64,000 nucleotides of DNA from Kalaharituber pfeilii (lineage: Eukaryota > Ascomycota > Pezizomycetes > Pezizales > Pezizaceae), in assembly GCA_015179045.1 (NCBI GenBank), contig WHUZ01000009.1:310001-374000 (forward strand). Direction: 5' to 3'. The first letter of the stretch is position 1, and the number at the start of each line of letters is the position of its first letter. A model generated the notes under the pieces. The model did no database searches and had not been told where the DNA came from. It saw nothing but the letters and a program-made list of their open reading frames with translations. The translations under genes were made by a program, and so were the position numbers. Of this stretch, positions 19,742-59,330 are shown piece after piece.

Positions 19742-22173
19742 TTAGATAAACCTCACCGTGGTAGCGCTACCATAATTCACACCATTGCATTGCAGGGTGA
19801 AAGTAAGCTGATTCGAGTGAATGTGTATAGCTACGTTGAATCTAACAACGTAGTAAACTTCTCCAGCTGAATTTTTCCGGGTCATGAAATGATGTTGAAC
19901 GGTGTCGAGATTGCAATCAATACGACAAACTTCGTATACATCTGGGATTAAGTGGTTAGATCAAATTAAGTTGCCTGAAGTCTCGTACCGGTCACAAACT
20001 TACTCGGGTCAGTGCTACGCTGTTCTGCTTGGCTGCGAGGCGAATCACTACCCAGTAAAACGGCTGTTGCGATGAAACAAGTGTCGTTTGGTGAAAATAT
20101 ATGAGAAAAAGGTAAGGATATCTCTTTTGTCTCTTCGATTTCATCTCCCTGAAAAAAAAAAGACCCTTGCCTTAGCTAATGCAGCGTACTAACGTAATAA
20201 CTTCTTAGTTCATCCGTCCCAGAGAACTTACCTGTTTGATCAGCCAGGTAATTATGTTTTGGGTCTTGTACTTCTCCTCATAGGAGCACCAGTATCGACA
20301 TTCAATGGGATGGATATGCGCATCGTATGTTTTAGAGTTTAAAATGCCGTAATTTCGTCCTGCCCGCCTACTCTTGATTTCTATGCATGTGCTTTGTAGG
20401 CCGCATATCACTGCTCCCCGGACAACAGCACTCCAACTGCATCCGTGCGATCAGTTCAGCTCTCCTGAATCTAGTTTTAGGAAAGTATCTCACGTGTCCA
20501 TTGGCTGCACAACTCTGATACCAATATCATTCTTGGGATTCATATTAAGTTGTTCTTGCAACCTTTTGTATAGGTAAGGGTGAGAACCAAAGCTACCAAG
20601 GAGCAGCACCATCTATATCAGTTTGCATAGGTCAGATGATGTTAGAAAGACAAGTTAAGAAGACTTACCGATGCTTGTTTGACGTTTCTCTGTGTGACGG
20701 CATCAAGTTGTCCCTGAATTAACTGTGAAATCTCTGCGATGATAGGCTCAAAGATTGATAGCATTTCAGTTCTCGAAATCATTAAGAATCCATCCACAAC
20801 CCCTTTGCTGTAATAGTCGGGGACGCCGGGAGTCTCGCAGTAGTACATCTCATCTTCGTAGTCATCATCTTGGTTGTCAGAGTCCTGAAAAGTTGGCATT
20901 AAACGTTCATTGAAAGCCTTCATCATGTTTTCGTAGGGCCTGCCCTTGGCAATCATCGCATCTACACTGTACTAAATCATAAACTTGATGCACATGTACT
21001 GGTTGGGTTGGTTTCTTACATTTTTGTACCAAGCCGGGCTTTGACAAATGCCGCAAACCGACGATTGAGGGAAGTTGATCCACACAAGCCGCCTGTGCCA
21101 ACAGCCACCTCAGAAATTCTAAATCTAGGAGCTACTTGCAAGACTTCATAAGAAATCAAGTCCTTAATGCAAGAGAAATTAGATATCAATGACAAGAGTG
21201 TTGAAGCTGAGGAAATCACCACCTGATAGAAGTGGTAAACTTACGACAGTTGTCTCTCCACAATCCGCTATGACAAAAGTATCGCCCACCTTTTCGTCAG
21301 TTATGTGGTTAGTATATACGGATTTTAGTCACTGCATCACGATAGTTACCTTGATTATTCCAGGATAAACATCAGTTAAGCAATATAGACCAGCTGCCTC
21401 TGATTCCGAAATCAATTGCAGACTTGAGTCATATTCCAAACCTATGCCAGCATCATTGGCTGCTTTGAAGGTCAACACCTTTAGAGAGTCACTCCAGAAC
21501 TAAGATTCCCTTCCTCATCAGTACGCCGCATTCAGGGACTGATATTTCTCTCAAGATGAACAGGGCATACAGCTGGAATGGTTAAGTAGTATTTAACTGG
21601 AATCACTTTCCAAAATTCAGTGCCGAAATTATTACTCAGAATTTGGAGTGTATGTTGTTTGATTGCTTTTAGGTAGTCTGAAACAACATCGACTGGTTTC
21701 TTATTTGGTGGAAGTGCTGCTCGTATCTGCTTAAGACTAAGAGGATCCGCAAGCGATCTTGTTTCCTGGGGCAGATAAAGGAGAAGCCTCAAGTCTCGGA
21801 GAGGCTCTCTACCTTGGTGTTGGCTCTCCGCAGCAGCTAGGAAACCCCATTTGGAAGTCCCGTCGGCCAAGTATATCAATTCCGATGGTACTTTATCTGC
21901 GTCATGTTTGCCCTTCAGGTAAAACCCCCAGTTAAACGTTTATTTAACGTCTTGAAAGCAAGTCAGTACCTACCATATCGCCTGGCTATTGCCTGATTGG
22001 TGTGATTTCTTTTGATGAACTATTCGCCTACCATTTCCAAGCATAGTTCCTATCAATACCATATTCCCGAGATCAACTGTAGAGAGCCGCATTCTGTAGC
22101 TGAAGAGACATACCCATGCAACACATGTGTCCCGTGTTCCAAAATCAATCCCAATAATGATGCTTTGTGCCAT
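19742..22173 (-). pseudogene. Hsp70-like gene, unit 1, decayed
   Basis: All eleven exons of the paralogues can be traced, starting MAQSIIIGIDFG and ending ATTVRFI, with usable GT-AG sites. Several key features are broken. In exon 2 (near 21985) the conserved IRQWPG reads IRQ-stop-PG, a single TGG to TAG change. Phosphate loop 1, GIDFGTTYSG in the sisters, is GIDFGTRDTC. Phosphate loop 2, ADCGGGT, is ADCGETT. The adenosine motif GGFGSS is GSFGSH. Skipping exon 2 (54 nt) would restore the frame, but ATP binding would still be doubtful. No coiled-coil partner remains upstream. Loss of function is therefore likely. The surrounding sequence is homologous to the other units. Confidence 0.85.
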
Positions 22174-23829
22174 TTCAATGATATGCGTATATATGAAGGT
22201 CGTAGATTATTATTTTACATTAGCGTGTAAGCTCCTGGAGGAAGGCTGGGCGCGGAAATGAAAGAAAGCCGCTTATGATACTTTCGCTGAAAGGTTTCTA
22301 GGAGGAGCATTAGCAGGGGCAAGGGATTGGGAGGTGAACTGGAGTTGGATACTTATAGGGCCTCCGTCACAATATTATGCAACAAGGTGTACCTACTCTG
22401 AAGCAGGCTTGGCTTGCCCAGGTTGTCATGAGCCCTAGCCCATTGTGGAAATAGATTATCTGTACTTGCATTGTTAGGCAGAGTGGATAATCTCAGGCGG
22501 TGATTCAGCATCACTTTGAACCAGCATGCATTTCAGTATTCCTATTGCCGCCAGTTCCAATATGATATTACCAGTGCTGTGTCACTGCAGCTAGCCAAAA
22601 GAAGATCTACAGACGAGCACACTCGAACTCAGCTCGAGCTCTACTCCAAATAAGGGCCGTTGGGGATCCCGGCATGATCATCCCAGCAAGGGTTCACAAG
22701 TTCCAGCAGCATCACTTTAATTAAAATTTTGAGGCAGCAAGTGCGCAAGATAGACTTGTCAGGCTCTCCATGTGCATACTAATGTAGGTAATTGTTCGTG
22801 GACAGGGTACTCTGCCCCGCTTGCTCTGCTTGGTGGCTGGAGCGGCGTGGTGACGACGACGGAATGGGCGAAAGGAAGCTTGGCATGAAGCCATGTGGAG
22901 ATAAGGGCAACACGTGAGGCGATATCATATATACAGACTTTCTGTACTGTAGCACATTCAATCAACCACCTTCTCTTCTCTTCTCTTCTCTTCGCACTCG
23001 CACTCGCATTTGGCCGTACGTTCGTTCCGCCAGCTCTCACCGCTCCGGCCCATCGCAGGGCAGTAGTGGATACTATCTGTCTATCTTACAGCGGTGGTCG
23101 CTGTACATCAACTATACATGTATATCTAAAGTTCACAAAGTACTCGTACAGAAAACTCTCCTTCCTGATTAGGGAAACCAATACGTGCTACTGCAGTCTA
23201 TGTACGTACTTGGATACCAGCAATATCTCGGAATACAGAGGAGCTCGGACGTTGTCGAATGCGCTACTGTGTATGATTGGTGTCGTGCCAAATGCTCTCT
23301 TAAGCCACCGGCAGGGGGCTCAGCTTACGAACTACTTGACACAAACCATCGGTTTAATTCCTGAAATTCCGGCATCATCTGACACCATCTACAAACAGGT
23401 AGCTTACTTTTGCATAGCAAACACTAGCAGAGCACTATAGCCACGGATGCGCAAGCATACCAGAGAAGTTCAATTTCATTGCCCTGATTGCATCCGGAGC
23501 ACCAGTCAGGCCCCGGAATGGACAAGCCCCAGGTGAAAAGCATAATCGACCGGATCAAGCATTTCATGCCCTGGTGCCTGGTACCTGTATCATAGGCCAT
23601 CCTCCTGCACACGCTGTCGCAAAACGTATCGACCCGGCAATAGCTAGAGAATTCCGTCCCTTGAGCCAGTTTCAAGTGAGCTTGTATCAACATCCATAAG
23701 GACAGAGTTAGAAACATAACAGTTCGTATCCCATGTGAGTCTTCTAGTGTCTGAATCTGCAAGCGATCCGATCGCTATAATTCCTGCGGGATGGCCGAAC
23801 ATTCACGTAGTACCGGAGCCTGACGAACA
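22174..23829. other. Upstream region of unit 1, partner missing
   Basis: The part next to the gene resembles the upstream regions of units 2 and 4. It includes the block CTTGTCAGGCTCTCCATG at 22755-22772, which recurs as CTTGTCAGGCCCTCCATA in unit 2. No trace of the coiled-coil gene is visible. A pyrimidine microsatellite (TTCTC repeats) lies around 22970-22995. Confidence 0.5.
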
Positions 23830-23840
23830 CGGTCGTTATC

Positions 23841-25357: not shown

Positions 25358-25368
25358 CGGTCGTTATC

Positions 25369-26294: not shown

Positions 26295-26296
<2 letters not shown>

Positions 26297-26736: not shown

Positions 26737-29191
26737 TTAAAAAAACCTCACCGTGGTAGCATCGCCATGCTGCACACCATTACATTTCAGGCTGAAGGTA
26801 AGCTGAGCCGAGTGAATGTGCATAACTAGGTTGTAGTTGATGACGTAGTAAACCTCTCCTTTTGGAGATTTTCGTGTTTTGAAATGTCGTCGAAGCTTTT
26901 GGAGATCGCAGCGAATAGAACAAACTTCGTAGACATCTGTTCTTAAGTGATTAGATCAAATTAATTACATCAAGACTGATACTAAGTCGACCACTTACTT
27001 GGATGGGTACTACGTTGTTCGACTTGAGTGCGCGGTGAATTACTCGCAAGCAAAACGATAGTGGCAGTGAAATCGGTATCGTATGGTTGAAACATACGAT
27101 AAAAACCAATGGATAGCTCCTTTGTTGCTCCAATCTCATCCCCCTATAGAAAAAACAGATCCATGCTCTTAGCTCTCACGACATACAGTTCTCTTTACCC
27201 ATCAGTTCTATAGAACTTACCTGTTTGACATACCAGGTGACAATACACGAGGCCTTGTACTTCCCCTCAAGAGGACACCAAAATCGACTTTCATAAGGAT
27301 GTATCTCCGCATCGTATATGGGATCAGCAGCAACACCGTAATTTCGTCTTGCTCTTCTACTGTTGATTCGTATGTTTTCTAGGCCGCAAATAACTGCCCC
27401 TCGGGCAACAGCGCTCCAACTACATCCACTTATCAGTTGACCTGTCCAGCATTCTGTTGAAACACATCATCTCACGCGTTGGTCGGCAGCACAACTTCTA
27501 TATTACCAGCATCCTGGGAATGTGTCTCAAGATGTTTTTTCACTCTTTTGTACAGGTAACTGGAAGAACCAAAGCCTCCAATGAGAACTATAGTCTGTAC
27601 TCAATTTTTGATTATGTCAGAAGATGTTGCACAGATTGTTGGGGAGACTTACAGATGCTGGTTTGTGCTTTCCCTTTATGATGGTATCAAGTTGTTCTTG
27701 AATCAATCGTAAAATCTCTTCAATGACAGGCTCAAAAATTGATTGCATATCAGCCCTTGAAATATCCAAGAATCCATCCTGAACCTTTCTCCTATAATCA
27801 TCGGGCACACCTGGAACCTCGCAGTCCATCCCATCTTGGTCATTAGAATCCTGAAATATTCGCTTTAGACGCTCATCAAAATCCTTCATCATTTTTTGGT
27901 AGGGCCTGCCCTTGGCAACCATCTCATCGACACTATACTGAATCATAAATGTGATGCACATGTACTGGTTGGGTCAGAGCCTTACATTTTTGTACCAAGC
28001 CGACGTCTGACAAATGCCTCAAACCGAAGATTGAGAAACACTGATCCACACAAGCCTCCACCCACACCCACTTCCTTAACCTCAAATCTAGGAGCTACTT
28101 GCAAGATTTCATATGAAACCAAGTCCTTGAGGCAAGGGAAGTTAGATGTCAACGACAAACAGTGTTATTGCCGTGATCTGAATAGAGATTCAAGGCAAAC
28201 TTACGACAGTTCCTCCTCCACAATCTGCTAGAACAAAAGTATCACCCACCTATTCATTAGATATGAGGTTAGCACATAGTAATTGAGCAATTATATCACG
28301 ATAGTTACCTTCAGTTTTCCTGGAAAACGATCTGTTAAACAATACAGAGCAGCTGCCTCTGGTTCTGTAATTAGTACTATATCATCCTTTGAACCTATAC
28401 CAGCATTATTGGCTGCTCTTAAGGTCAGCGCCTTCGCAGCCTCACTCCAGACCTACGGTTTTCTCTCATTAGTATGCTGCAATTCATGAACTGATATAGT
28501 TGATTGAGTGCATACAGCAGGGATAGTTAAGTGATATTCAATTGGAATCACTTTCCAGAATTCAGTACCAAAATCTTTACTCAGAACTTGTAGTGCATGG
28601 TCTTTAATTGCTTTGAGGTAGTCTGAAACTGCATCGACAGGTTTTTTATATGGTGGAAGTGCTGCTTGTATTATTTTAAGACCTAGTGGATCCACTGATG
28701 ACAGCTCTTCTGAAGTGGGATCAAGGAGAAGCTTCATGTAGCGCAGAAGTTTTCTATCTTGATGAAAGTTCTCAGCTGTAGCTAGGAAACCCCATTTGAG
28801 AGTCCCGTCATCCAAGTATTTCATTTCGGATGGCACTTTATCTGCATCAAGCCCACCCTTCAAGTGAAAGGGCATCAGTTTGGTTTTATCCATTTTCAGA
28901 AAGCATGGTGTCACATACCACAGCACCTGGCCATTGCCTGATTGGTGTGATTTCCTTTGGCGACAAAGTATTCGCCTATAATTTCCAAACGGATCAATAT
29001 CAACATTGTCCAGGTCAACCGTGGAGACTTCAATGCTGTAGGCGAAGGAGACATACCCATGCAATGCCTGAGTACGTTGTTCCAAAATCAATCCCGATAA
29101 TGATCCTATGTTCCGGTTTTGACGACACGGCTGGAGCGGAGAACGGCAACCTGACTGGAAACAAGAACGACGACCACGAGAATGGCGACAT
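26737..29191 (-). CDS. Hsp70-like ATPase, unit 2 (HSPA12-type)
   Basis: Eleven exons: 29057-29191, 28919-28975, 28516-28857, 28309-28452, 28205-28249, 27986-28125, 27653-27932, 27476-27594, 27221-27419, 26999-27143 and 26737-26936. They splice without a stop to 601 residues. Actin-fold nucleotide-binding motifs are intact: GIDFGTTYSG (33-42), ADCGGGT (234-240, on its own 45-nt exon) and LIGGFGSS (about 385-392). The later SRRARRNYGV block and the C-terminal beta-rich region are typical of fungal Hsp70-like proteins related to HSPA12, which lack the classical peptide-binding and lid layout. The N-terminus carries 24 residues absent from the sisters, between MS and EHRIIIG; it is Ser/Phe/Pro-rich with few charges and could act as a targeting peptide. 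The divergent partner starts 1375 bp upstream. Confidence 0.88.
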
Positions 29192-29981: not shown

Positions 29982-30391
29982 CTTGTCAGGCCCTCCATAT
30001 GCATACTCAAGATCAGAGACACTGCCCCACTTGCTCTGGCTGCGACTGAGGGGGTATTGTGCATATAGTTATTACGGCCCCGAAAAGCCAGCGAACATTC
30101 GATCTTGGTTCAATCAATGTGCGACATGCGCACACAGTGTAGGTAGCTATGGTGGCTCCACAACAGCGCTTGATACTTTTAGTTGATTCAGTCTGGCGCT
30201 TGATGATTCAACGCGCTGGAGATCAATCCCACAGGCCGCCAAGATTCTCGGCCTTCCACAATTGTCTGCATAAATCAAGCAACAGAGCCTAGCTATTGCC
30301 TACTGGCACTTCAGTTTCATTGAGTAGCCAGACAGTATTGATATTGTGTGAATTGTTTCATCCCCGGTCAATCAAAGGTGCATGACGCTGA

Positions 30392-30399: not shown

Positions 30400-30565
30400 C
30401 TACGCTTCCACTGTCTCTCACTCCTTATGGTTACTCGAATTTAGCAAGATCTCTGAAAACAAGCGAAAAAACAGGGGACGTCTCTCAGGCCCATGATCTT
30501 AACTATCACCTGTTATACGTTATTAAACCTTTCATCTCAAACGTTGAATGTCTACTTCTCGCAAG

Positions 30566-32040
30566 ATGCTCGACTCAATTAAGAACAAGTGCGCCAGCTT
30601 GAAGGATTTGGCCGGATGGCCAATGGGGTCCGATTCACAATACCTAAGTTAGTAGTCTTGTTCACCAGTACACGAACACCTATCAACAAGAACACATATT
30701 GATTTGTGTGCTCAGGTAGCGAACCTTCCACTTCAGCTGTGGAGGCTTCAGTACCCTCTTCGGAACATCGCCCTTTCGATAGCCCAAACACCGCTGCTCA
30801 CCAGGTAGGTAATACAACTCATTCCTCCTTTCACTCTTGCCTACTATGATATGTGTACATGCAGATGATGCTGACTTAGCTGATCCTTACATACAGCACA
30901 ACGGATTGAGAGAACATGGACACCTGAGGCATTGTGCTAGCTGCAATGCACTGGAAGAACAACTCCAGGCTTCCAAAGCTACAGAACAAGAACTCTGGAA
31001 GCAACTAAATGCCTCAGAAGTTTACATACAAAACCTGCGACAGGAACTCACACGATCAGGGGCTCTCATCGGAAATTATCATGCAAAAGTCGGACAAGTG
31101 GAAGAAGAAAAGCTCCAGTATCAGCATCAATTCGAGGAGCTAGTTAAACTGCATTTAGGATCGCTCGGGAAAGGCCTTCCATTGCACGCAGATGATTCGT
31201 ATTTCAGACGAGAGTTGAGAAATCTGGTAAAGGATATAATGCAATGGGCACGCAACGCTACGTGGGGTCAGCCACAACTGACACAAGAACTCTGGCGGAC
31301 TACTCCTCTCTGTCAAAACTTTGTCAAAGTAGTGGAAAAGAAATTTCTCAATCTTGGTGGCCTCCTTGTAACGAAGAGTATAGGCAATAGATTGAGGACA
31401 AGACTTGTAGAGGCATTCCTTTGCCATGAGTTGCTGGAGGGAATCATTGATTCTCGTGCGAATCCGGTGGGACTACAGAAGGCTTCGCTTTCAACTATGA
31501 CTGATTCCATGATATGCTCAGGTATCTCAGCTCTTAAACCCCATCTCAAAGGAAGATGCATTTCCACTGATATGCAACTTGGATGCAGACGAAGATCGGC
31601 AGTCATGGAAGGCCCTCACCGTTCATCGCTTGACAAACAACAATGAAAATTTCCTGCAATCACAGCAACTGGAAATTAATGAATTAACGGACTCCCTTCA
31701 TGAGGCACTGGAACCATTGTGCTCGAGCTCGCCAAAAGCCACAAAACAAGGTTTACGGGATATTGTCAATAGAGTTGCGCATCTAAGCTTGGAAGTTTCC
31801 AAGTTGCCGTTTCTTTTGACTCACAATTCTATTGATCCTGGTAATGAAATTGACACCAATTACATGGAGGATGTGGATATCGATTGCGAGGGGGTAGGAG
31901 AACAGGGAGATCATGAAGCCCATTGCAAGACGACCATCGTCCTTTGCGCTCCCTGGGCCAAAACGACTTTTGATGCAGAAGGGAAATATGAAAGAAAATT
32001 TACTTTGCTTTCGAAGGGATATGTGTCGTCTCTTCATTAA
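30566..32040 (+). CDS. Coiled-coil partner protein, unit 2
   Basis: Four exons (30566-30647, 30716-30804, 30897-31521, 31589-32040) give 415 residues. The exon phases are identical to those of the unit 4 paralogue; exons 1 and 2 total 171 nt in both. The order is a 57-residue Ser-rich head, a CxxC motif (CASCNALEEQL), a coiled coil of roughly 80 residues, then a globular region. The globular region opens with GLPLHADDSYFRREL and DIMQWARNAT, and continues with RLRTRLVEAFLCHELLE and, after the last intron, WKALTVHRLTNNNENF and a tail ending AEGKYE...GYVSSLH. I know no function for this family. It is divergent from the Hsp70-like gene of the same unit, a pairing repeated in units 4 and 5 and formerly in unit 3. 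No signal peptide or membrane segment is seen. Confidence 0.85.
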
Positions 32041-35247: not shown

Positions 35248-35280
<33 letters not shown>

Positions 35281-35851: not shown

Positions 35852-38255
35852 TTAGAGAAATGTCACTGTTGTAGCGTCTCCATATTTCAGACCATTATAC
35901 TCAAGGCTGAACGTAAGCTGCGCAGAGTGAATATGCATCACTAAATTGTAGTTCACTTCCAAGTAGCTCTCTCCGGCTGAATTTATCTTCGTTTCAAAGT
36001 GCTTTCGAAGCGTTTCGAGGTTGCAGCTGATGCTACATACCTTATATACATCTGAATTCCACCATTAGTTTGACTGAAGCTTCCTGAGATCCTGAGTGCT
36101 CATGACATACTGGGATCAGTGCTGCGCTTTTCGGCCTGACTGCGGGGTGAATCGCTGGCCATCAGCTCAGATGTCGCCTCAAAATTAATTTCATCGGCCT
36201 TGAATGTCTGATAGAATGAAAAGGTTATTCGCTTTGTCTCTGGGATTTCATCGCCCTATTGAGAAGGATTACTCCACCATTTAGTATTTGAATTTGTGGT
36301 GTTACGTTATAGATGTGGGCTGCGGCTTACCTCCTTAACGTACCAGGTGAGCAAATCTGAGGCTTTGTATTCCTGCTCAAAAGGGCACCAAAATCTGCTT
36401 TCGAGAGGATGGACCAGTGGATCAAATTGTTCATAACAAGAAACACCATAATTTCGTCGTGCCCGCCTACTCTTGATCTGTATACTTTGTAAACCGCAAA
36501 GCACTGCTCCTCGGACCACCGCACTCCAACTTTTTCCAGATTAGGTTAATATCCTCAATATGGTATATCTTGGACATGCTTACGCATTTACTGGCTGTAA
36601 AACTTTTATACCACCGGAAGCTTGGCGAGATGAGCGTAGCTGTTCCTGCAATCTTTTATATAGGTACGCGGAAGAACCGAAGCCTCCAACAAGCAGAATT
36701 GTCTATATCTCGTTGAATGCATATCTTAGCGAACTTCACAGTTCTGAAAAGGATCGACCGCTATTACTCACAGAGGCAGGTTTGTAATTTCCTGTGATGA
36801 TAGTATCAAGCTGTTCCTGAATCAAGCGTAGAATCTCTGCAATGACCGGCTCAAAAATTTCTCTCATGTCGGCCCTCGCAATATCCAAGAATCCGTCCTG
36901 GACTTTTCTCTGCAAATGATCGCTTACGCCTGGAACCTCGCAGTCCATCTCATCTTGGTCATCAGAGTCTTGAAAAATACGTTTCAAACGCTCATCGAAA
37001 TCCTTCATCATCTTTTGGTAGGGTCTGCCCTTGGCCACCATTGCATCTACACTATACCAAACCATAAATAAGATGTACATGGACTCGGTTGGGGATGCTT
37101 ACATTGCTTCACCAAGCCATCTTCTGACGAAAGCTTCAAACCGACGATTAAGGAAAACCGATCCGCATAACCCTCCGCCGACGCCCACTTCCTTGACCTC
37201 AAATTTGGGAGTCTGGTACAAAACTTCATACGATACCAAATCCTTGAGGCAAGAGAATCAGGATCAGATGTCAAATGATATATAGTTTCAACGAAGTTTA
37301 GCTTTGAATCGGGCGAAATAAACGTACGACGGTTCCTCCTCCACAATCCGCTACTATAAATGTATCTCCCACCTACTCATAAATTATAGGGGTTATTATA
37401 TAGCAACTTGAGTCAGATATCACAACAATTACCTTGAGTAGTCCAGGAGAAATGTCGGTTAAGCAATATAAAGCAGCCGCTTCTGGTTCTGCAATTAGTA
37501 CAAGCTCCTTTCCTGACCCTATTCCAGCATTGGTAGCTGCTTTTAGGGTCAATGCTTTTGCAGCCTCACTCCAGACCTAAACTCGTCTTTCCCATTAGTA
37601 TACTGCGTTCAAAGATTGGCATCATCTCAAGATTGAGGAAGGACATACAGCAGGAATGGTTAAGTGGTATTCAACCGGAATCACTTTCCAAAATTCAGTG
37701 CCGAAACTGTTACTCAGAACTTGGAGTGCATGTTCTTTGATTGCTTTTAGGTAGTCTGAAACAGCATCGACTGGTTTCTTATTTGGTGGAAGTGCTACTC
37801 GCATCTGCTCAAGACAAAGGGGATCTGCAAGCAATCCCTTTTCCTGAGATGGGTCAAGAAGAAGCTTCATGTATTGCAGACGCCTTCTATCTTTAGAGAG
37901 ACTGTCTACAGTAGCGAGGAAACCCCATTTAAAAGTCCCATCAGCCAAATATATCATTTCCGATGGTACTTTATCCACGTCATGCTTGCCCTTCTAGGAG
38001 TGTCAGTCATCTTCAACTCAAGCCCAAAGATTAGAACACTTGCACATACCACGGCGCCTGGCCATTGCCTGATTGGTGTGATTTCCCTTGGTGACAAACT
38101 ATGGGCCTATCATTTGCAAACTCAGTTCATATCAATGTCAAAGTTCTCACATCAACTGTAGCAAGTACCACGTTGTAATGAAGGAGGCATACCCATGCAA
38201 CACCTGAGTAGGTTGTTCCAAAGTCAATTCCAATGATAATCCTATTTACTGACAT
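35852..38255 (-). CDS. Hsp70-like ATPase, unit 3 (HSPA12-type)
   Basis: The same 11-exon layout as unit 2, without the N-terminal insertion, starting MSVNRIIIGIDFGTTYSG and ending ATTVTFL; about 575 residues. All three nucleotide-binding motifs are intact: GIDFGTTYSG, ADCGGGT and LLVGGFGSS. The micro-exon encoding IRQWPGAV is intact, and no stop or frameshift was found in any exon read. Exon 7 carries the conserved GRPYQKMMKDFDERLKRIF segment. A working ATPase is expected. Upstream, the ancestral divergent region has been split by the TIR element at 38966-40419. The coiled-coil partner survives only as a stub around 41.6 kb, so this Hsp70-like gene is effectively an orphan. Confidence 0.87.
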
Positions 38256-40225: not shown

Positions 40226-40641
40226 TTCAAACAGTGGATGTGTGGACACGCGAGTGTGTGTGAGAATTTGAGAGGGTGAATTGTCGGTAGAATGAGAAAA
40301 TTCAAATTCTGAGTGGCCCGGGCCAGTCACGAACCAGCGTTCCGTTGAGTAGTCCGGGCTAGTGGCCACTGGTCCGGGCCAGTGGCCACTGGAACGTTGT
40401 TACGAATGGCCCGGCACACATGCATATTCATAACTGGGCAAACAGCTTGCTCCCCCAGCTGCTGCTAGCTTGTACACACCACTTTTGTCAAGTGCTCTCA
40501 AGTAAAATGGCGCTACAGAGCGCCGAATCTGACAACAAAAGCTCGATTCCGTTTTGCGATATCAATTGCGTGCAGCTGCAGCACATCCATTGCATGGTAC
40601 TTGGAAGGCCTTCATTCACTACAAGTATGTATTGACTCTAT

Positions 40642-40693
40642 TTTTTTTTTTTAATTTCATACTCGCATGCCGCCTAACAGGCTATGGCGAGAA
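40642..40693 (-). mobile_element. 52-bp hairpin-plus-A insertion
   Basis: On the minus strand it reads CTCGCCATAGCCTGTTAGGC, GGCATGCGAGTATGAAAT and A. TATTGACTCTAT on the left (40630-40641) and TATTGACCCTAT on the right (40694-40705) form a 12-bp duplication with one mismatch. Confidence 0.75.
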
Positions 40694-41103: not shown

Positions 41104-41544
41104 TAAGTCTTTTCAACGGGCCGGTCAGATCACCATTAGCCATGGCCCGCGCCGGTGTGTACCAAGGCCGGGCGCAGTCGAGGCTGGTCTGGACCAAAAA
41201 AGGGCCCAGCTAGACGATTTCAGATCCGCACCGACCAGGACGGGTCAGATAGGCGCACATCACGTAAGAAGAACAAAGACATTATTGACCGGCTCTCCCA
41301 TTTTCCACTTCAATCTTGACTTTTCTAGTAGCACCGCACTGTCCGGCGACCGGTAAGGTGTTTAAGTACGAGTGGAACCTCAACTGCAAACCGTCACTAA
41401 GACCAATCTGCAACGCAATCAGCAGCATTGCACATTTGACAAAGAAGCCATACAACCTTGTGCGGATTATCCTTCCTCTGCTCAAGCTGCCAGGCGCGGT
41501 TCTACAAGATGTACTCTTCCATATCTCTTTCGAGCACCTTAGGT

Positions 41545-41800
41545 TTAGGAATATTTCAGAGCTCAAGCAAAAAAGACATGGGAATTAGGAAATAGATCAG
41601 GTCTCTTACATTCACTATACAGAACGTGTTGTACGGTATTAGAACCTCCGATTTGGAAACGTTGAGTGTCTACTGTACTTCTTGCGGGATGTTGGAGCGC
41701 ATTTCAGGAGGTTCAAAGGCCCAACTCACCAGGCCCGAGTTAGTCTACTTCACCAGCGGACCCATTGCTTTCAACGAGCACTTATTGACTTGCCACTTCT
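41545..41800 (+). pseudogene. 5' stub of the coiled-coil partner, unit 3
   Basis: The sequence is collinear with the promoter and first exon of the unit 4 partner: AGGTTTAG...CAAGCAAAAAAG, CATTCACTATA, TTGTACGGTATTAGAACC, then ATG at 41689 and a short exon ending before GTTAGTCTACTTCACC. Unit 4 has GTTAGTCTGCTTCACC at its first donor site. Similarity fades at the second acceptor, and nothing like the coiled coil or core follows. The partner of unit 3 has therefore lost all but its 5' end. Confidence 0.65.
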
Positions 41801-42383: not shown

Positions 42384-42397
42384 CTTGCTCTGCTCTG

Positions 42398-43770
42398 TGG
42401 TAGGGCGGCGCGTCTAAGCTACTATTACCGAGCTGACGCTGGGCTCAGACGCCGCAGGTCACGAGGGCCGTATGGGGATATAGGCAATGCTGGGTTATAT
42501 ACACACGATGAGGGTAAGTCCAGGGGCATAGGTGATGCTTAGAAATGGTGATGCTGCAAAACTGGTATAAGAGGGGCATTCTTTCTACCTTCTTCATCTT
42601 TCATCTTTCGTCTTTCATTTTCATCTGTTCATACTCATTTCCCATTACCTTCAACCTCACTACAGTTATGTTGTTTTGATATTGGTTTCTGCACTTGCTA
42701 TACAATCAAACAACTCTTGCTCATGCTCAGTAATCTTCTCCATTCAACTACCTGATACTGCCTTCACTTCCTCCTTTGCCCAGCGACCTCCCAGCAGAGG
42801 ACCCAGTGCGTAGAGTAGTGGAATTAGGTGCAGCGCGCCCCACGCTCATACTCTCGACATCTGATCCGCTCTTGGTCTTCTTACTAATGTCTAGGACCTT
42901 CCTTCGAGACCTCAAGTGGCAGTTCATGGCCTGGGCCATCTCCCTAAAAAACCCTGCAATCCTGCCCCAATCCGCTTGTCCTTGACTCCTTGCCCCCTTC
43001 TGGATCCCAGTTCACCACCACGCAGTTGAGGCCGTCGACAAATGATGGTAGTTCCACCTCGTATTGGCACTCTGTTGCCGGATGGGCTGCCTTTTGCTCC
43101 ATTTTCTCTAATATTGGTGACATGATCAGGTGACGATTGGTAGAATGCAGAAGATCGCGGAGAGCCGGCCCGCCCCAGACGGGGCGAGCAGGGCATGCCA
43201 AGAGGCTTGGGAGAGAAGGGTGGGTCGGGGCCTACTGGAGATGGGGGTAAAGGGACATGGGGTCTGACAGGCAACGAGGGTGAAGAGAGGGCTGCCCGCA
43301 TCTGCTCATACCTCCCATACCAGGAGCCTCAGGAATTAGTAACAGAAGGTGGAATGAGGATGAAAGCCAAGAGGCAGTGGGCAGAGGGAAGGAACAGACT
43401 GGGCCTGAACTACAGGCATCTTCAGAGACTAGGCGGACAGATAAGCACACTGGGCAGCTTTCTGGGCGGGAAGGAACTGAGGGCCTGGAGGCTCAAGATA
43501 GGGAAGGCAAATGGTCCGGAATGCAGGTGGTGTGGAATAGACGTAAGAGTTGATGGCACACATCGGCACCAGGTTCAACGTCTGGAAGAAGAAGTGGCCA
43601 GGGGGCCTGGGGTCATTAAGAAAACCTCCAACTTCCCAGGAAGACGAACCGGATCCTTTGGCGGAGCTGATGAGGTGGGTGGCGAGATGATGGAGCGCTG
43701 TACCTTCAATCTTAATTCTCGTATTTAAGAGATGCATCTTGGTGTTTGTTGGTTATTCTAGGTTCGTTAA
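42398..43770 (+). mobile_element. Internally deleted LINE copy
   Basis: The first 450 bp (from GTAGGGCGGCGCGTCTAAGC) match the 5' region of the minus-strand copy at 62462-63150, so this looks like the true LINE 5' end. From about 43260 the sequence switches to the ORF2 C-terminus: GLTGNEGEERAARI, GGMRMKAKRQWAEGRNRLGL, TLGSFLGGKELRAW and ECRWCG, parallel to the copy at 34.6-34.9 kb. Reverse transcriptase and endonuclease are missing. A short element with both LINE ends is a candidate non-autonomous derivative. Confidence 0.6.
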
Positions 43771-43781
43771 GAAGTTTTATT

Positions 43782-43840: not shown

Positions 43841-43866
43841 GAAGTTTTATTTCCTTTGTAGTTAAT

Positions 43867-44399: not shown

Positions 44400-46845
44400 T
44401 TAGATAAACGTCACAGTGGTAGCATCACCATGCTGCACACCATTGCATTTCAGGCTGAAAGTAAGCTGAGCTGAGTGAATGCGCATAACTAGGCTGTAGT
44501 TAATGATGTAGTAAAGCTCTCCATCTGAATTTCTTCGTGATTCGAAATGCTGTCGAAGCTTGTTGAGATCATTGTGAATACGACAAACTTCGTATACATC
44601 TGTGTTCAAGTGATTAGATCAAATTATTCCCTGGATCCTTGTAGTAAAACCCTAAAGCCTTATAATAAACGACTAACTTACTCGGATGGGTGCTACGCTT
44701 CTCGGCTTGGTTGCGAGGTGAATCACTAGCCCACAAAGTGTGAATGGAGCTGAAATCGGTTTCAGATGGTAAATATTTACGATAAAAGTAGAACGATATC
44801 TCCTGTGTGTCTTCAATTGAATCCTCCTGAAGAAAAAAGACACATACTCTCAGCTCTCGTAACATATTAATATAAAAGTTATTTGGTTCATCAGTCCAGC
44901 TTACCTGTTTGACATACCAGGTCATGATACCTCTGGCCTTGTATTCCTTCTCAATGGGATCCCAGTATCGGCTTTCCATGGGGTGGATATCCGAATCGAA
45001 TGTTTCAGAAGCAGAAACACCGTAGTTTCGTCTTGCCCGTCTACTTTTTGATTCGAACGCTTTGTAGGCCGCAAACCACTGCCCCTCGGGCAACAGCACT
45101 CCAACTGCATCCAGTTCATATCAGTTGAACTGTCCTGCATCCTCCTTGGAATGATGTAACTTACGCGTTTGTAGGTTGCAGAACTTTGATACCTCTAGAA
45201 CTATTGGGTTGTGTCTCAAGATGTGTTTTCACCCTTTTGTACAGGTATCGTGAAGAACCAAAGCCTCCAATGAGAAGGACAGTCTATAGTCAATTTTTTG
45301 ATATGTCAGAAGATGTTGCACAAATCGTTGAGAAGACTTACAGATGCTGGTTTGTGCTTGCCCTTTATGATGGTATCAAGTTGTTCTTGAATCAATCGTA
45401 AAATCTCTGCAATAATGGGCTCAAAAATTGATTGCATGTCAGCCCTCGAAATATCCAAGAATCCATCCTGAACCTTTTTCCTATAATCATCAGGTACACC
45501 CGGAACTTCGCAGTCCATCCCATCTTGGTCACTAGAATCTTGAAAAGTTCGCTTCAGACGCTCATCAAAATCCTTCATCATCTTTTGGTAGGGCCTGCCC
45601 TTGGCAAACATTGCATCTACACTGTACCAAAAAATTGTAAGTGTGATGCACCTGTAGCAGCTGGGTTGGGTTCTTACGTTTTTGTACCAAGCCGATTCCG
45701 GACAAATGCCTCAAACCGACGATTGAGGAAGACCGATCCACACAACCCTCCACCAACACCCACCTCTGTAACCTCGAATTTAGGAGATTCTTGCAACACT
45801 TTATATGAAACCAAGTCCTTTAGGCAACAGGAGTTAGATATGCAAAAACAATCTTGATGCTGTCAATATCACATTCTGAATAGAAAGGTAAACTTACGAC
45901 GGTTCCTCCTCCACAATCTGCAACCACAAAAGTTTCGCCCACCTATTCATCAATTATACAGTTAGTATAAAAGTTTAAAATTTGAGTCATTATATCACGA
46001 TAGTTACCTTCAATGTTCCGGGAAAAAGATCGGTTAAGCAATACAGAGCTGCTGCCTCTGGTTCTGCAATTAGTATCAGATCATTTTCTGAACCAATGCC
46101 AGCATTATTGGCTGCTTTTAAGGTTAACGCTTTTGCGGATTCACTCCAGACCTAATGTTCTCTTCCACATCAGTATGCTGTGCTCAGGCACTGAAAGTCA
46201 TATCAACATTGAGTGAGGTCATACAGCGGGAATAGTTAAGTGATATTCAGTTGGAATTACTGTCCAGAATTCAGTACCCAAATCATTACTGAGAACTTCG
46301 AGTGCATGGTTTTTTATTGCTTTGAGATAATCGGAGACTGCATCGACTGGTTGTTTATGTGGTGGAAGTGCAGCTCGCACTTGCTTAAGACCAAGTGGAT
46401 CTGCAAATGACCCCTTTTCCTGACTGGGATCAAGGAGAAGTTTCATATATTGCAGAAGCTTCCTCCCGGGACGAAGACTTTCTGCAGCAGCGAGGAAACC
46501 CCATTTGAAAGTACCATCATCCAAGTACATCATTTCCGATGGCACTTTATCCACATCGTGCTTGCCCTTTAAGTAGGAGTGTCAGTTACCCACTTAATCA
46601 ACAACTTATACTCAGACAGAAAAACACTCGTACGTACCACGGCGCCTGGCCATTGCCTAATTGGTGTGACTTCCTTTGGTGATAAACTGCTAGCCTATTA
46701 TTTGCATACCCAGCTCATGTCAATGCCATAGTCCTCCACAGCAACCGTAGCAAGCATCACTCTGGAAGTGAAGGAGGCATACCCATGCGACACCTGAGTA
46801 CGTTGTTCCAAAATCAATCCCGATGATGATCTTATGCCCCGACAT
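44400..46845 (-). pseudogene. Hsp70-like gene, unit 4, one-base frameshift
   Basis: The same 11-exon structure, from MSGHKIIIGIDFGTTYSG to ATTVTFI, with intact nucleotide-binding motifs (GIDFGTTYSG, ADCGGGT, LLIGGFGSS). In exon 9 the conserved IKSRRARRNYG is split: the upstream frame reads CGLQSVRIKK-stop and the downstream frame SRRARRNYGV. The cause is a run of five T on the plus strand (45045-45049), one longer than needed. Everything else is undamaged, so this is either a very young pseudogene, a sequencing error in a homopolymer, or a polymorphic allele. As read, the protein would be cut at about residue 390, losing the C-terminal third. Its coiled-coil partner at 48318 is intact. Confidence 0.75.
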
Positions 46846-48317
46846 GATGGCCTTCGATGATTGCTTAAAGGGATGGGTCCGGAAAAGCCCTGCGGAAATG
46901 AAAGAAAACTGCCGTATAAGACCTTCCCCAAAATGCTATTCCGATGAAGATTTAGAGAGGCCGCTAAGTGGAAGGGTGACCTGGAGTTGAAATAACTAGA
47001 GCTAGAGGGTCTCTGTCACAATATGGACTAAGATAATCAAAGAGTTCTAAAGCAGATACCTGCACGCACAGGGTTGGCTAATAGGACAAGCTTGTTCTGG
47101 GAGCCTGAGTGGAATGCATACTCGTACTTATTTGCGAGGCTGAGGGGATACATCCAAAGTTGCGAGTTTGCAAGAAATGATCTTTCCTTATATGGGTTAG
47201 CGCGTCCTGTGGATACAGGGCTGCCCGATGCAGCGTTGCTATTCATACAGGTCATTATTGAGGTCGAATTCCCATTTGCTCCAGTTTTGCTGCCGTCAGT
47301 GCTATGCCACTTGATAGAGCTTGTAGCAATATGAACATTCCACACTGCAGCTGAAAATATTTTGCAGGTACATCATTTTTGCGAGAAGCCGCAGGTAGGT
47401 ATACTACAGACGTACAAATGAACGCTCGAGTCGTACTATATGCTCTTCGATTCCAACTACAGCTCTGTTACGTTTGTATATATGTTAGTGGTGTACGTGC
47501 TACAGAAAGGATTATCCTGAGCAAAGTTCAGAATGGAAAGTCATGTAAGCCGATATTCGCCATCTGCCTTGTGCTGACCAATGCTCTTGAGCCGCACATT
47601 TCTTCTAATGTAGACTGATCTTCGCTGCGGCGGTCAGGCCCTCCATATGCATATTCAAGGATGGCCCACATGATGCGCTTGCGACTGGTGTGATACTGTG
47701 CATACTGTACTTTATGTTTATGTCTCCTGTATTGAGTTCATAGGCTGAATTAACATTAGGTGCCCGATCAGCCAGCACATTGTTCGATCCCGTTCGGACG
47801 ATCAATGTGCGCGGCTGTGCAGCTTCAGTGCAGTGCGTAGTTTTTGGTTTAGCCCAGCCTGGAAATGACAGGTCGGCATTCAACAAGCTGCACAAGATCC
47901 TAGGCCTCCCGCAGCCATCTGGCCAAACAATTGCAAGCAAGACAGTCCGCAGCCTAGTACGTCAGCGTGCTGTGTCTAAGTGCTAAGAGCGGAGCATAAA
48001 CGGAACGGAACCAGAGTGGTAAGAGATATCATCGGGACCAAGCATAAAGAAATGCCATCGAGGGCCATGGCATTCCATGCAGTATCATCAAGTAGCCGCA
48101 ATTAAAGCTGCGAGATGGTAGTTTATAACCTATACTTGCCTCTTCCATTGCCACTCACTTGCGGGCTCGTTAGGTTTACTCAAATCTAGCAACGTTTCTA
48201 GGCACAAGCGAAAAAATTCGGGAATTGGGACGCACCTCAGGCCCCTGAATCGACATTCACTATAACCAGTTGTACGTTATTAGAATCTGCCAATTTTAAA
48301 ACGTCGTCTACTTCCCC
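46846..48317. promoter_or_regulatory. Divergent intergenic region, unit 4
   Basis: This 1.47-kb stretch separates the two start codons. The Hsp70-proximal part resembles the upstream regions of units 1 and 2 (shared TCTGTGTCAC/TCTGTCACAATATG cores). The GTCAGGCCCTCCATATGCAT block occurs at 47635-47654, and the TATA-like TTTATAACC at 48122-48129 lies 196 bp before the partner ATG. No gene is seen inside. Confidence 0.5.
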
Positions 48318-49873
48318 ATGATGTTCGGCTTCGAAGTGCCGGATGCATTACACTGGCCAACATCCTCTGGAAAGTCAAACCCACAACGCCCGCGTTAGTC
48401 TGCTTCACCAGTACACCAGCGTCTATCAGCAAGATCACTTATTGATTTGTGCGCTCAGGTAGCGAACCTTCCACTCCCATCGAGGGGGCTTCAGTTTCCT
48501 CTGCGGAACGTAGCCCCGGCGCAGGTTCGAAAACTGCCTCCTTTACCCACCAGGTACACAGTACAACTCAATCCTTCTGTCACTCTTGTTTACTATGATT
48601 TATCTACCCGCAGATGATGCTGACTTAGATGATGCTTATTATAGCACAACGGATTGATGAATTATGACCACCCAATGCAATGTGCCAACTGCAATGCACT
48701 AAAAGAACAACTCCAGGCTTCCCAAGTTAAAGAACAAAACCTCAAGGGGCAACTACTTGACTCAGATATCACCATACGGAGCGTGAGAAATGAACTTACC
48801 ACGCAGAAACGCGAAGAAGAAGCACTCAGGGGGCAACTACATGGTGCAACTGTCAACATACATAACCTGAAACAGCAACTTGGTTCGCAGAAACTGGTAG
48901 AACAGCGGCTTACAGAAGAGAGGGAAATTCTACGTGCAAAAGTCGGAAAGCTCGAAGAGGAAAAGATCCAGTATCAACTGCAAATGGATAAGCTGGTCAA
49001 ACAACAGTTAGAGTCGCGTAGAGAAGGCCTCCCATTACACCAAGACGACTCGTACTTCAGCCACGAACTGGACAACCTTGTGTCAGACATAAGGCAATGG
49101 GCCCGCACCGCTACACGAGGTCAGCCACCACTCACAAGGGAGCTGTTGCAGAATATTCGATTTCCTTCAAGCATTGTCAACGCTGTTAACAAGAGATCTC
49201 TGAATCTTTTCGACATCATTCACGCGAAGAGTATGGGAACGAGGGGGAGGACAAGACTTGTGGAGGCAATCCTTTGCCGTGAGTTGCTGGAGAGATTGAT
49301 TGATTCTCGTGAGAATCCTGTAGGCCTAAAGGTTGTGCTGTCAGATATTTCCAAGCTTATGCCATGCTCAGGTATTTCAACTCCTAAACCTGATCCCAAA
49401 TGCAGATGAATGTCAGCTAATATGGCTCTTTGAATACAGTTGAAGCTCGACAGTTATGGAAGGCCCTCACGGTTCATCGCTTGACAAACAACAATGAAAA
49501 TTTTGTGAAAGAACAGCAGCTTGAGGTTGATAAACTAACGGATTGGCTTCATTCGGCACTAGAACCCTTGTGGTGTAGCTCACCAAAGGCCACAAAACAA
49601 GGACTACGAGATATCGTCAATAAAGCTGCGCTTCTCAGTTTGGAAGTTTCCAAGTTACCCTTCATTCTAACTAACGTGCATCTTCAGTTTGAAAAGCTCG
49701 ACCCAAATTGGGAGAATGTGGATATTGAAGTGATAGAAGAGGGAGATTTGAAACCTCATCGCATGGCGGCCATCGTCCTTTGCAAGCCTTGGGGCAAATG
49801 GGAGTTTGATGCAGAAGGAAAATATGGGGACTATACTATGCTATTGAAGGGATATGTGTCGTCGTTGCATTGA
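48318..49873 (+). CDS. Coiled-coil partner protein, unit 4
   Basis: Four exons (48318-48393, 48459-48553, 48645-49371, 49440-49873) give 443 residues; a second in-frame ATG at 48321 is an alternative start. The domain order equals that of unit 2: head, CANCNALKEQL with CxxC, coiled coil, GLPLHQDDSYFSHEL, DIRQWARTATRG, RGRTRLVEAILCRELLERLI, WKALTVHRLTNNNENF, and a tail ending AEGKYG...GYVSSLH. It is 28 residues longer than unit 2. The excess lies in the coiled coil, where two similar four-heptad stretches (LKGQLLDSDITIRSVRNEL and LRGQLHGATVNIHNLKQQL) replace one. No signal or membrane segment is present. Confidence 0.85.
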
Positions 49874-54207: not shown

Positions 54208-56741
54208 CTATGCCATCCCCACGGTTGTCACTTCCCCATACGTGACGCCCTGATATCTAAACTCGAACGTCAGCTGTGCTGAATGAACCCTCATCACCAA
54301 TTGATAATCTATATCGTAAAACTGTTCACCCTTGCTATTCACGGAGATTTTCAGATGTTGACGGATGCGGTTGAGGTCTGTTGTCAGTTTGCATACTGGG
54401 AATACGTCTGTACAATTGTGAATTTGAGTCAGTACGGCCGTGATATCTACAAGTGCACCAAACACAAGCTCCTGCAACCTAGGGCCTGCTGATCGCGATG
54501 AGGGTTGGGACTCACTGTGATGCAATGCATTTGTTTCTGCTTTGTCACCAGGTGAATTACTCCCAAGCAGGTAACTTTCGGTAACAAGCGGACCAAATGC
54601 TCTAGCAGGGAATTTACAGCGAAAGTCCATAACAAACTCCTTTGTTTCCGGCACAGCATCACCCTAGGGTTTTGTCAGTCTTTTTATCTTCGGTAGATAT
54701 TAAACCAAAATCGATAATACCTTACGGATGTACCAGTTCATACGATTCCTACACTTCCATTCTTCATCGTAGTTACACCAATACTTATACTTTACCGGGT
54801 CTCCAGGCCTCCAAGCCTTAATGCATTTAACGCCGTAGTTACATCGTGCTCGCCTGCTCTGAATCTTTACCATTTGGAGGCCACAGATCACAGATCCACG
54901 CACAACAGCACTCCACCTGTTGATTGCCCTTGATTAACACCAAGCCGAGCAAGCTGCAGAGACTGTGTAAACCGAAAATATGGGAACATGGGAAGCTTAC
55001 GGATTATCCGGCTGCAGAACGCGAATACCGTTCCTGTATGACTCTAGGATGGCTTCACTTAGTCTTTGGTGCAGGTAAGGTGATCCCCCAAATCCTCCCA
55101 CCATAAGCACAGACTTTGAAACAGAGATCAGTATCATACCTAGACCTATAGATTATAGGTGTGATGAATGGGAAGCTAGAATACTTACAGAAACCATCTG
55201 TCCCTCAGCGGCCACCTTATCAATCTGCTCCTTTACTAGTCTTATGACCTGTTGAATGACGGGCTCAAAGATGTCTCTCATTTCGTCTCTGTCTATTTCC
55301 AAGTACCCATCATAGATTCTTCTTTCCTCGTCATCACCATTAATAATCCCTCCAAGATCACAGTCCATAAACTCTTGGTCTTCTGCGTCAGTGAATTTTC
55401 GTTTTAACCGCTCATCGAAGTCCTTCATCATCTTGGTATATGGCCGACTCTTTTGTACCATTTCCTCGAAACTATCACGAATATAGGAATTGAATTGTGA
55501 GCAAACGGCAAAGATCGGTTCTTGGATCCCAATCTTACAGGTCGTTTCCCAGTCGTCGCTTAGCAAACGCCTCAAAACGGCGGTTTATGAAAACAGAACC
55601 ACATAAACCGCCACCAACACATACCTCCTCCACTCGCAATTGAGGCCGACGGGTGAGGATTTTGTATGTGACAAGGTCCTATACACCTGTGTACTGAGTC
55701 AAGTGCAAGACCACTTTACGCTTCCTGATGTTATGAATGATGTTACTCACCACAGTTCCACCACCACAATCAGCTACCACGAAGATATCTCCTTCCTATA
55801 CATCACGATGCCCCTTTTAGTTAAATTCAGCTTGTTAAGTGCCTGGAAAGACACAGATGCAGCAGTGTCGTGGAGAACAAGTGCAGACCTTCAGTAGTCC
55901 CTCGTACATACGGGTGAGGCATTGCATTGCTGCGGCTTCTGGTTCTGCAATCAGCACTATGTCTTGGGGTGTACCGATGCCAGCACGGTTTGCAGCTTCC
56001 AATGTCAATGCTTTGGCTGCATCACTCCAAACCTGCTCACAGAATTAGACCATGAACGCTCAATTTGTATCGTCACAGGCAGCGTGCCGTTGCCGTACCG
56101 CAGGGATTGTGAGATGGTACTCAATAGGTATTACTTTCCAGAATTCTGCTCCATAGGTCTTACTTAAAGTCTCGAGGGTATGTGTTTTGAGAGCTGAAAG
56201 ATAATCTGTGACGACGTCAACAGGCTTTTTACCCAAGGGTATGTTTGCTCTATGCTTGGCGAGATCAAGGGGATCTGCCAACACTTTGTTCTCCTGAGAA
56301 GGGTCCAACAGGAGTTTCATGAACTGCAATAGCGCGCCGTTCCTTGCTTGACTGCGAGCTGTACCCTCTTCAGCGGCTTGACACCCCCATTTAAAGCCTC
56401 CGGAGACCGGATATCGCATCTCGGAGGGTATTTTATCCAAGTCTTGTTTCCCCTTCGCCACAAGCGTTAGCATAAAGCAAAGCACGTTCAAGCTCACAGG
56501 CTTGTTCGAGGAAAGATTATCTTACGGTAGCCCCAGGCCATTGTCGTATGGGCTCTGCCGTGAGCGGCTCGGCAATCGTGCTTGCCTAATGCCGAAATTA
56601 CGAACATCAGTAGAGTTCCGAGGTATTTTCTTCTGTACTGACTGACACGGACAGGAGAGGGAAGCTACCTACCCATGCGACACCCGAATAAGTGGTCCCG
56701 AAATCTATTCCGATGATGATCCGCTGTTGCCCGGTAGCCAT
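54208..56741 (-). CDS. Hsp70-like ATPase, unit 5, diverged
   Basis: Eleven exons in the same order and phases as the other units, from MATGQQRIIIGIDFGTTYSG to GEVTTVGMA; about 590 residues, no stop found. Nucleotide-binding motifs are intact (GIDFGTTYSG, ADCGGGT, MVGGFGGSPYL). The IRQWPGAT micro-exon and the SRRARCNYGV block are kept, but overall sequence differs much more from units 2-4 than they do from each other. Exon 4 ends in a plain GT (GTCTGC) donor. The C-terminal region ends in the RVHSAQLTFEFRYQG strand pattern shared by all units. The gene is divergent from the coiled-coil gene at 57631, 890 bp away. It is probably the oldest split in the array. Confidence 0.87.
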
Positions 56742-57630: not shown

Positions 57631-59330
57631 ATGTTGAAGGATAATCAGCCTGAGACAGCAGCCGGAGGTCCGCAGGTGCAAGCAGTCGATAAAGGCCACA
57701 TAATCCCCGATGAGCGTCGAGCTGAACGCTCAGTTCCAAGCGGCGCAGCACAGCGGCCGAGATACGAAAAACTGCCATCGTCCTATGCGGAGGCACTTCG
57801 GCTGGGGGGGTCGCAGGGAGAATCTCGCTCGTCGGATACGAGAAATCTAAGCAGATCACAATCGTCCAGTGGGCCATTATCCGGTGCTGGGGCGAGCGAA
57901 CGACAATCTTGCACAACACAGAAAATCGAGGGGGAGACACTACCTCATAAAGAGCCGAGAAAAGACAAAGGAAGTTCTGCCGGAGAAGCAGGTGTGGATC
58001 ATGAGCATCTCAATCATCCTGAGCAGTGCCATGAAAATCCGGTCACCTCCAGGATTGACGACATTGCGGAGAATTCTAATCCAAATTCGACTGCGGTGAC
58101 AGTGGGGGAGAGTGGCATAGCAGAAGTACATACCTTTTGCCGTTCATTCATATAAAACTTCAATTTCCCCAAGATTAATCAAATTCTGAGAAGTGTACAT
58201 ATATATATTTATAGGCACCGAACCCAGACGTTCCTCCCCGTACGAGCCCACGTTTTAGCCGCTCATTTCGCAAGCCCCCCCGTGGGCAGAAATACGACAG
58301 TAGAGCAACATATAGAGAGGTAGAGGAGCTTGAAAGTATGAGACAAAGAGAGAAAGCACAAAGATTCCAGCTACAAGAGCAACAAAAGGAGAATCAGGTC
58401 CTGCAAGCCCAAAATCACCAATATCAGCTTCAAATTGATCGCATGACCCAAATTGTTCAACAATTGAATAAACAAGGCTTGCCGTCACCTCCGGACGATG
58501 GGTATCTCGCTGATGCACTAGCGGGGGTATTGTCAGACATACGCACTTGGACTCGTGGGGCGAACAGGCATTTGCCTGTTTTTACAGCCGAGGCATGGAA
58601 TAATGTTGAAAGCGACACTCAACGTTTGATAAATTCTCATTTCTCCAATTTTGAAGAAATAGTCGCTTCTAATGACTCCAAGGCTCTTCGACTAAAATTG
58701 CTAGAAACCTTGATTTATCAGCGACTCTCCAAAGTCATGCTTGGAAAGCAAGTCCTGGGAATTGACGAACATTCAAATAAAGCCATGACAAAGCTCAAGG
58801 ATGCCATTAAGAGCAACAAGGCCTCTGGTATGTATTGTCTTTTCTTTATTGAGTTGCATGCACTCAGCTCACTTTTTGGCAATGACAAAGATCGAGAAAT
58901 GTGGTGGTGGTTCGCGCTTTCTATCCATCTTTTGACCAAGAACAGCGACCAATTTGAAGAGAGGCAAAGTGATGAGGTCGATAATCTCACCCTCGACATT
59001 CATGACCGGCTCATGGACGTCGGCATAAGTGATCGAGACTCATTAAAAGTCCAACTCCGAGATATTGTTCTTCGGGCTGCTCAGCTCGGCTGGGAAGTAG
59101 CGCGACTTCCATTCAGAATTCAAGCTCTGTCGATTCCGCCGGGTTCAAAGTTTAACGCATCGTGTATGGAGGAGGTGGAGAATCCGAGTGATGAGCTAGA
59201 GATAAAAGAAGCTGTCGTGAAGGCGGTCATGTTCCCGCCAATTGTGAAAGTTGCCTTTGATGCAGAAGGGAAAGTGGTGGGGAACTCGGATTTCCAAGTG
59301 CTTGTGAAGGCACGAGTGTGGTGTGGCTAG
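57631..59330 (+). CDS. Coiled-coil partner protein, unit 5
   Basis: Three exons (57631-58125, 58215-58827, 58891-59330) give 515 residues. The first 165 residues are Ser/Gly/Gln-rich and probably disordered, far longer than the 57-residue heads of units 2 and 4. Then come a basic stretch, a short coiled coil (EKAQRFQLQEQQKENQVLQ), and the core GLPSPPDDGYLADALAGVL-SDIRTWTRG, KLLETLIYQRLSKVM and DREMWWWFALSIHLLTKNSD. The protein ends FDAEGKVVG...VKARVW. The last intron is 63 nt and in frame, so a retained-intron protein with 21 extra residues is possible. Its pairing with a diverged Hsp70-like gene shows that the divergent arrangement is old. Confidence 0.82.

Follow-up and report, generated by a model that had tools for sequence, protein, structure and literature searches.

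Divergent pairs of Hsp70-like and coiled-coil genes in a tandem array of the desert truffle Kalaharituber pfeilii

When a gene repeatedly stands head-to-head with an Hsp70 gene and is copied along with it, does it encode a partner of that Hsp70 or only a neighbor? The question is raised by a 64,000-nucleotide stretch of the genome of the desert truffle Kalaharituber pfeilii (Pezizaceae) (contig WHUZ01000009.1, positions 310,001 to 374,000; here called the window), in which five Hsp70-like genes lie on the minus strand and those of units 2, 4, and 5 are divergent from a plus-strand gene for a coiled-coil (CC) protein. We tentatively read the array as a birth-and-death family in which whole blocks holding the divergent pair were copied and CC is a dedicated partner predicted to bind and complete a lidless Hsp70, and give this reading nearly even chances.

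Layout of the array

The genes and elements concerned are the following, with positions in the window.

19742..22173, minus strand, Hsp70-like gene of unit 1 (spliced model; deposited protein P0011 skips exon 2)
22758..22780, plus strand, 23-bp element upstream of Hsp70 unit 1 (degenerate pattern, zero mismatches; 0 matches expected)
26737..29191, minus strand, Hsp70-like gene of unit 2, open (spliced model; P0004, 601/601 identical)
29985..30007, plus strand, 23-bp element between Hsp70 unit 2 and CC2 (degenerate-pattern match)
30548..32040, plus strand, CC2, 421 residues, three introns, divergent from Hsp70 unit 2 (P0002)
35852..38255, minus strand, Hsp70-like gene of unit 3, intact (P0003, 577/577 identical)
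41514..41792, plus strand, remnant of a CC 5' end adjoining unit 3 (similarity to the 5' regions of CC4 and CC2)
44400..46845, minus strand, Hsp70-like gene of unit 4, frameshifted (spliced model; P0005)
47633..47655, plus strand, 23-bp element between Hsp70 unit 4 and CC4 (degenerate-pattern match)
48318..49873, plus strand, CC4, open over 443 codons, three introns, divergent from Hsp70 unit 4
54208..56741, minus strand, Hsp70-like gene of unit 5, intact (P0015, 583/583 identical)
57631..59330, plus strand, CC5, 515 codons in the spliced model, divergent from Hsp70 unit 5

The Hsp70-like models were built with a spliced aligner written for this analysis. The deposited K. pfeilii proteins P0011, P0004, P0003, P0005, and P0015 correspond to Hsp70 units 1 to 5 and align to their loci with zero mismatches, as do P0002 (CC2) and P0001 (CC5), and these seven mismatch-free alignments provide an independent check of the spliced models. 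Models and deposited proteins together bear out the original prediction, made from the DNA letters, that Hsp70-like genes recur at five minus-strand loci and that those of units 2, 4, and 5 are head-to-head with a CC gene (start-to-start gaps of about 1.4, 1.5, and 0.9 kb, respectively). The stub of a CC gene that it placed in unit 3 is likewise present, as the 5' region only. A tblastn search of the whole window (E up to 1) found no further CC copy.

The expected conservation of exon number and phase holds for the underlying Hsp70 DNA, where each of the five models shows ten introns (phases 0,0,0,0,0,2,0,2,0,1), but not for the deposited models of units 1 and 4: P0011 skips an exon that bears a stop and is left with nine introns, and P0005 bypasses a frameshift by means of a longer, 124-nt intron and is 21 residues shorter. 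Among the CC genes, the phase-0 intron and the last phase-1 intron are common to all three copies, whereas the first phase-1 intron is found in two of the three.

Copying and loss of the pair

Units 2 and 4 are homologous across the Hsp70 gene, several promoter blocks, and the CC gene. The 23-bp degenerate pattern matches upstream of Hsp70 units 1, 2, and 4 with zero mismatches; elsewhere in the window it is absent at up to three mismatches, it did not occur in 100 shuffles, and units 3 and 5 lack it. Since unit 1 has this element in common with units 2 and 4, it was probably once a complete unit; of a pair's CC side, only the promoter element remains there. Protein distances among copies 2, 4, and 5 are proportional in the two families, with depth ratios of 2.51 (2.11 to 3.06) for Hsp70 and 2.80 (2.30 to 3.48) for CC, and the rate of change in CC is about double that in Hsp70 (distance ratios of 2.09 to 2.41). 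The homologous genes and promoter blocks, the 23-bp element, and the proportional distances agree with the proposal that the pair was duplicated as a block, and the overlapping intervals of the depth ratios agree with the expected co-divergence of the two families, as seen in three pairs whose synonymous divergence differs somewhat (see below). The ratio of nonsynonymous to synonymous substitution (dN/dS) between CC2 and CC4 is 0.47 (0.36 to 0.62), with values of 0.23 to 0.70 in windows along the gene, which indicates purifying selection and that CC is a selected protein. Hsp70 units 2-4 are also under purifying selection. A canonical heat-shock promoter was considered and rejected, as the five upstream regions contain no three-unit heat-shock element and only one or two two-unit matches each.

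The claim that the unit rather than the single gene is retained is overstated. The CC gene has been lost twice, the Hsp70 genes of units 1 and 4 are damaged by a stop and a frameshift, respectively, and the unit 3 Hsp70 is strongly constrained in a unit with no full CC gene. Two of the five units are complete without caveat, one is complete with a doubtful Hsp70, and the remaining two lack CC.

Exon 2 of the unit 1 Hsp70 gene is interrupted by an in-frame stop (21986-21988), and the phosphate and nucleotide motifs are altered; the gene is likely a pseudogene. Its branch dN/dS takes one of two values, 1.05 or 0.73, according to the pair compared (lower interval bounds, 0.50 and 0.42, respectively), which makes near-neutral evolution likely without proving it. 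Both genes of unit 2 are open, and the deposited Hsp70 model begins upstream of the site at which the other units have ATG. In unit 3, about 280 bp of the CC gene are left; a search of 6 kb aligned them to the CC4 5' region in 317 columns at 62% identity (E 9e-18), and they also resemble the 5' region of CC2. Spliced alignments scored below zero (-48.5 and -47.3) for an overlooked CC gene in unit 1 and for a CC body in unit 3, and both possibilities were rejected. In this assembly, the reading frame of the unit 4 Hsp70 shifts by one base within an A run near 45049, a shift that could be real or an assembly error. CC4 has an open frame, and no deposited protein was found for it. Both genes of unit 5 are open; the spliced model of CC5 includes a 165-codon Ser-rich 5' exon (57631-58125, plus strand) that is not in the deposited P0001, whose start is at 58338.

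Several other features of the window lie among or beside the units. Imperfect tandem repeats of about 72 to 106 bp at 39857-40226, between the unit 3 Hsp70 and the CC stub, partly account for the longer gap between them. Eight copies of a short element of about 45 bp starting CGCCATAGCC, each followed by an A run, are found at 19427, 35215, 41972, 43784, and 63473 (plus strand) and at 40689, 34932, and 25998 (minus strand), one of them about 180 bp past the stub; they look like the 3' ends of 5'-truncated, A-tailed retroelements. A pair of inverted repeats (42397-42850 and 62659-63146; 498 columns, about 80% similarity), separated by 20 kb, flanks units 4 and 5. Outside the array, an open reading frame on the minus strand (8002-8958) has a weak match to AA9 polysaccharide monooxygenases (E 1.4e-5; 25.5 bits, below the cut-off of 27.8).

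The two proteins and their relatives

The Hsp70 half of the pair is already known as a large fungal family: a protein search with the array Hsp70 gave 2538 matches among 7997 scored candidates, many of them ascomycete, of which 120 were listed. By sequence, the array proteins are members of the fungal group deposited as “actin-like ATPase domain-containing” or “heat shock 70 kDa protein 12A-like.” They are 35 to 74% identical to 66 aligned relatives and 37 to 38% identical to those named HSP 12A (P0066, P0072, and P0100), the HSPA12A label being that of the deposited names of relatives, with no human sequence compared. Homologues of HSPA12 were found only in vertebrates among the 2008 genomes searched, according to the excerpt of PMC2266713. 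PF00012 scores 34.5 and 38.4 bits in units 3 and 5, the two that were scanned (cut-off, 20.6). The motifs GIDFGTTYSG, (A/T)EPEAAA, DCGGGTVDL, and GGFG, which we take to be phosphate 1, connect, phosphate 2, and adenosine, are intact in units 2 to 5 and altered in unit 1, and the nucleotide-motif columns are largely invariant among 67 relatives.

A structure model of the unit 3 Hsp70 (67-row alignment; predicted local distance difference test score [pLDDT], 88.4) matches DnaK and BiP over its length and contains a nucleotide-binding domain and a beta substrate domain. The model aligns to BiP up to residue 527 and ends in beta strands with no helical lid, although, as the comparison program warned, few alignment rows cover it beyond residue 472. 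The array Hsp70 is thereby predicted to stop about where canonical Hsp70s continue into the helical lid, taking as the start of the BiP lid the position that we presume. The relatives among the matches listed have 484 to 798 residues, most of them near 560 to 650, which suggests that the lidless form is probably a trait of the family rather than specific to the array.

In a tree of 25 proteins, hand-chosen from the window and from the 120 matches listed, Hsp70 units 1 to 4 form one clade (100/99), whereas unit 5 stands apart from them and joins four Terfezia and Tirmania proteins (100/99); the unit 5-type Hsp70s of Terfezia claveryi, T. boudieri, and Tirmania nivea are P0013, P0016, P0017, and P0018. 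Another Terfezia protein, P0014, is nearer to units 1 to 4. One recent local duplication can thus be rejected as the source of all five units. The grouping of unit 5 and the matching depth of CC5 suggest that the pair predates the split of these genera, and it is probably older than the genus Kalaharituber. Seven K. pfeilii proteins are among the 120 matches listed, five of them in the array and two (P0009 and P0012) on other contigs.

In the CC protein, an N-terminal part for which no fold is predicted is followed by a coiled coil, a helical region, and strands at the C terminus; the helical region and the strands are taken from a low-confidence model (pLDDT, 42.2). The coiled coil has an excess of heptads over shuffles in CC2 (P = 0.0002), CC4 (0 of 5000), and CC5 (P = 0.02). 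No Pfam family reaches its cut-off: CC5, P0001, and P0002 have no match at all, and the matches of CC4 to Macoilin (E 0.00017) and Fez1 (E 0.0015) are below cut-off and lie over the coiled coil. NCBIfam has no match to P0001 and only matches far below cut-off to P0002 (best E, 0.00039), the best match of CC in a PDB profile search was unconvincing (E 0.21), Rfam gave nothing at gathering scores, and the family scans turned up no domain linked to cell death or incompatibility. The possibility that CC is a J-domain protein was rejected, as it matches no J-domain profile and CC2, CC4, and CC5 have no HPD.

Protein searches yielded K. pfeilii proteins only, both for a single CC query (1 of 4672 candidates) and for three (2 of 7012), and no CC protein was found outside the array by a search that misses distant relatives. 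In a scan of a prokaryote collection, 339 stretches fit a pattern and none encodes a CC relative. The protein search misses many relatives near 30% identity, and the CC5 query did not recover P0002 although the pair scores E 8e-24 (three shared 5-residue words); the absence of CC elsewhere therefore holds only for close relatives of 192 to 612 residues. Many fungi carry unnamed proteins with a coiled coil and a helical domain, and we take a diverged member of such a family to be one possible identity of CC.

Partner, neighbor, or relic

As a partner, CC would dimerize via its coiled coil and bind the beta domain or the nucleotide domain of the Hsp70, where it may determine how substrates gain access or how the nucleotide cycle runs. 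The role of the missing lid could be supplied in trans by the helical and C-terminal parts of CC, or by its N terminus acting as a pseudo-substrate, as Zuo1 does for Ssz1, and units 1 and 3 would tolerate the loss of their own CC if other CC copies act in trans. A rough order of parts is shared with GrpE, in which a long coiled-coil helix is followed by a helical bundle and a C-terminal beta part, but CC has no sequence match to any GrpE family in the family scans, and its model is too poor for a comparison of folds. The nearer parallel is Ssz1, described in the excerpt of PMC7083937 as an Hsp70 without a lid whose extended beta domain is occupied by its dedicated partner Zuo1. The array Hsp70, in the unit 3 model, also appears to have no helical lid, whereas CC has neither a J domain nor an HPD motif, and the pairing in the array is a physical adjacency of genes.

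In the main rival explanation, CC is a hitchhiker, a neighbor with a task of its own that adjoined the Hsp70 gene at copying and shares only a bidirectional promoter region with it; we consider this a substantial possibility, though a lesser one. It would explain why CC is gone from two of the five units while the unit 3 Hsp70, intact and without a full CC gene beside it, remains under strong constraint (branch dN/dS, 0.12), and unit 3 shows that this Hsp70 can be kept without CC in cis. All of the pairs also stem from few duplications, so that the adjacency amounts to one or two independent events. Other observations weigh in the same direction, against a dedicated partner. The lidless form appears to be common to the Hsp70 family, most members of which have no CC found, and P0009 and P0012 have no known CC. 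The co-divergence is based on three pairs, and strict joint history is at odds with synonymous divergence (dS), which is 0.64 (0.50 to 0.81) between CC2 and CC4 versus 0.48 (0.40 to 0.59) between Hsp70 units 2 and 4, the CC value being the higher in 97.3% of 1000 bootstraps; this could reflect rates that differ by region or conversion among the Hsp70 copies. The low confidence of the CC model adds to these points. What argues against the hitchhiker is that the adjacency has persisted from the time when unit 5 and units 1 to 4 separated, a split that the tree places before that of Kalaharituber and Terfezia, and that Hsp70 and CC have diverged in proportion.

The birth and death of units and the faster change of CC would also fit a recognition system, for example in allorecognition or defense, in which copies of CC and Hsp70 diversify and are gained and lost between strains. 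This we regard as improbable, since the dN/dS of CC2 and CC4, overall and in windows, is well below 1 and gives no sign of diversifying selection, and the family scans detected no domain for cell death or incompatibility. Slightly less probable still is that the array represents, for the most part, a tandem repeat in decay, with CC frames that are relics or mispredictions. The stop in unit 1, the frameshift in unit 4, the two losses of CC, the lack of a deposited CC4, and the eight short A-tailed repeats would be expected of such decay, but all three CC frames are open over 421 to 515 codons with conserved introns, and purifying selection acts on CC2 and CC4.

The dedicated-partner reading is thus the one that we carry forward. 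The original prediction knew of no described system of this composition, and this is true of the pairing but not of the Hsp70 half: the titles and abstract openings of the literature searched name no dedicated partner for this Hsp70 branch, and no description of the Hsp70/CC pairing was found in that literature, including passages of PMC7083937, PMC2266713, and PMC12692333. Because the Hsp70 is common and joint action is only inferred, the array offers a candidate partner system for an Hsp70 branch that has been little studied and falls short of being categorically new. A bolder proposal, which we think unlikely, is that desert truffles, independently of the ribosome-associated complex of Ssz1 and Zuo1, evolved a two-protein chaperone in which CC replaces the lid of an HSPA12-type Hsp70, with a pair that arose before Kalaharituber and was multiplied as a cassette, so that the specificities of its two members diversify together.

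A gene that has accompanied an Hsp70 in one duplication after another offers a concrete candidate partner for a lidless Hsp70. With three paired Hsp70 copies, two unpaired ones in the array, and two elsewhere, this one genome is a natural experiment, and the array makes the needs of a lidless Hsp70 testable. If the dedicated-partner reading is true, CC would be a dedicated Hsp70 companion of a new kind.
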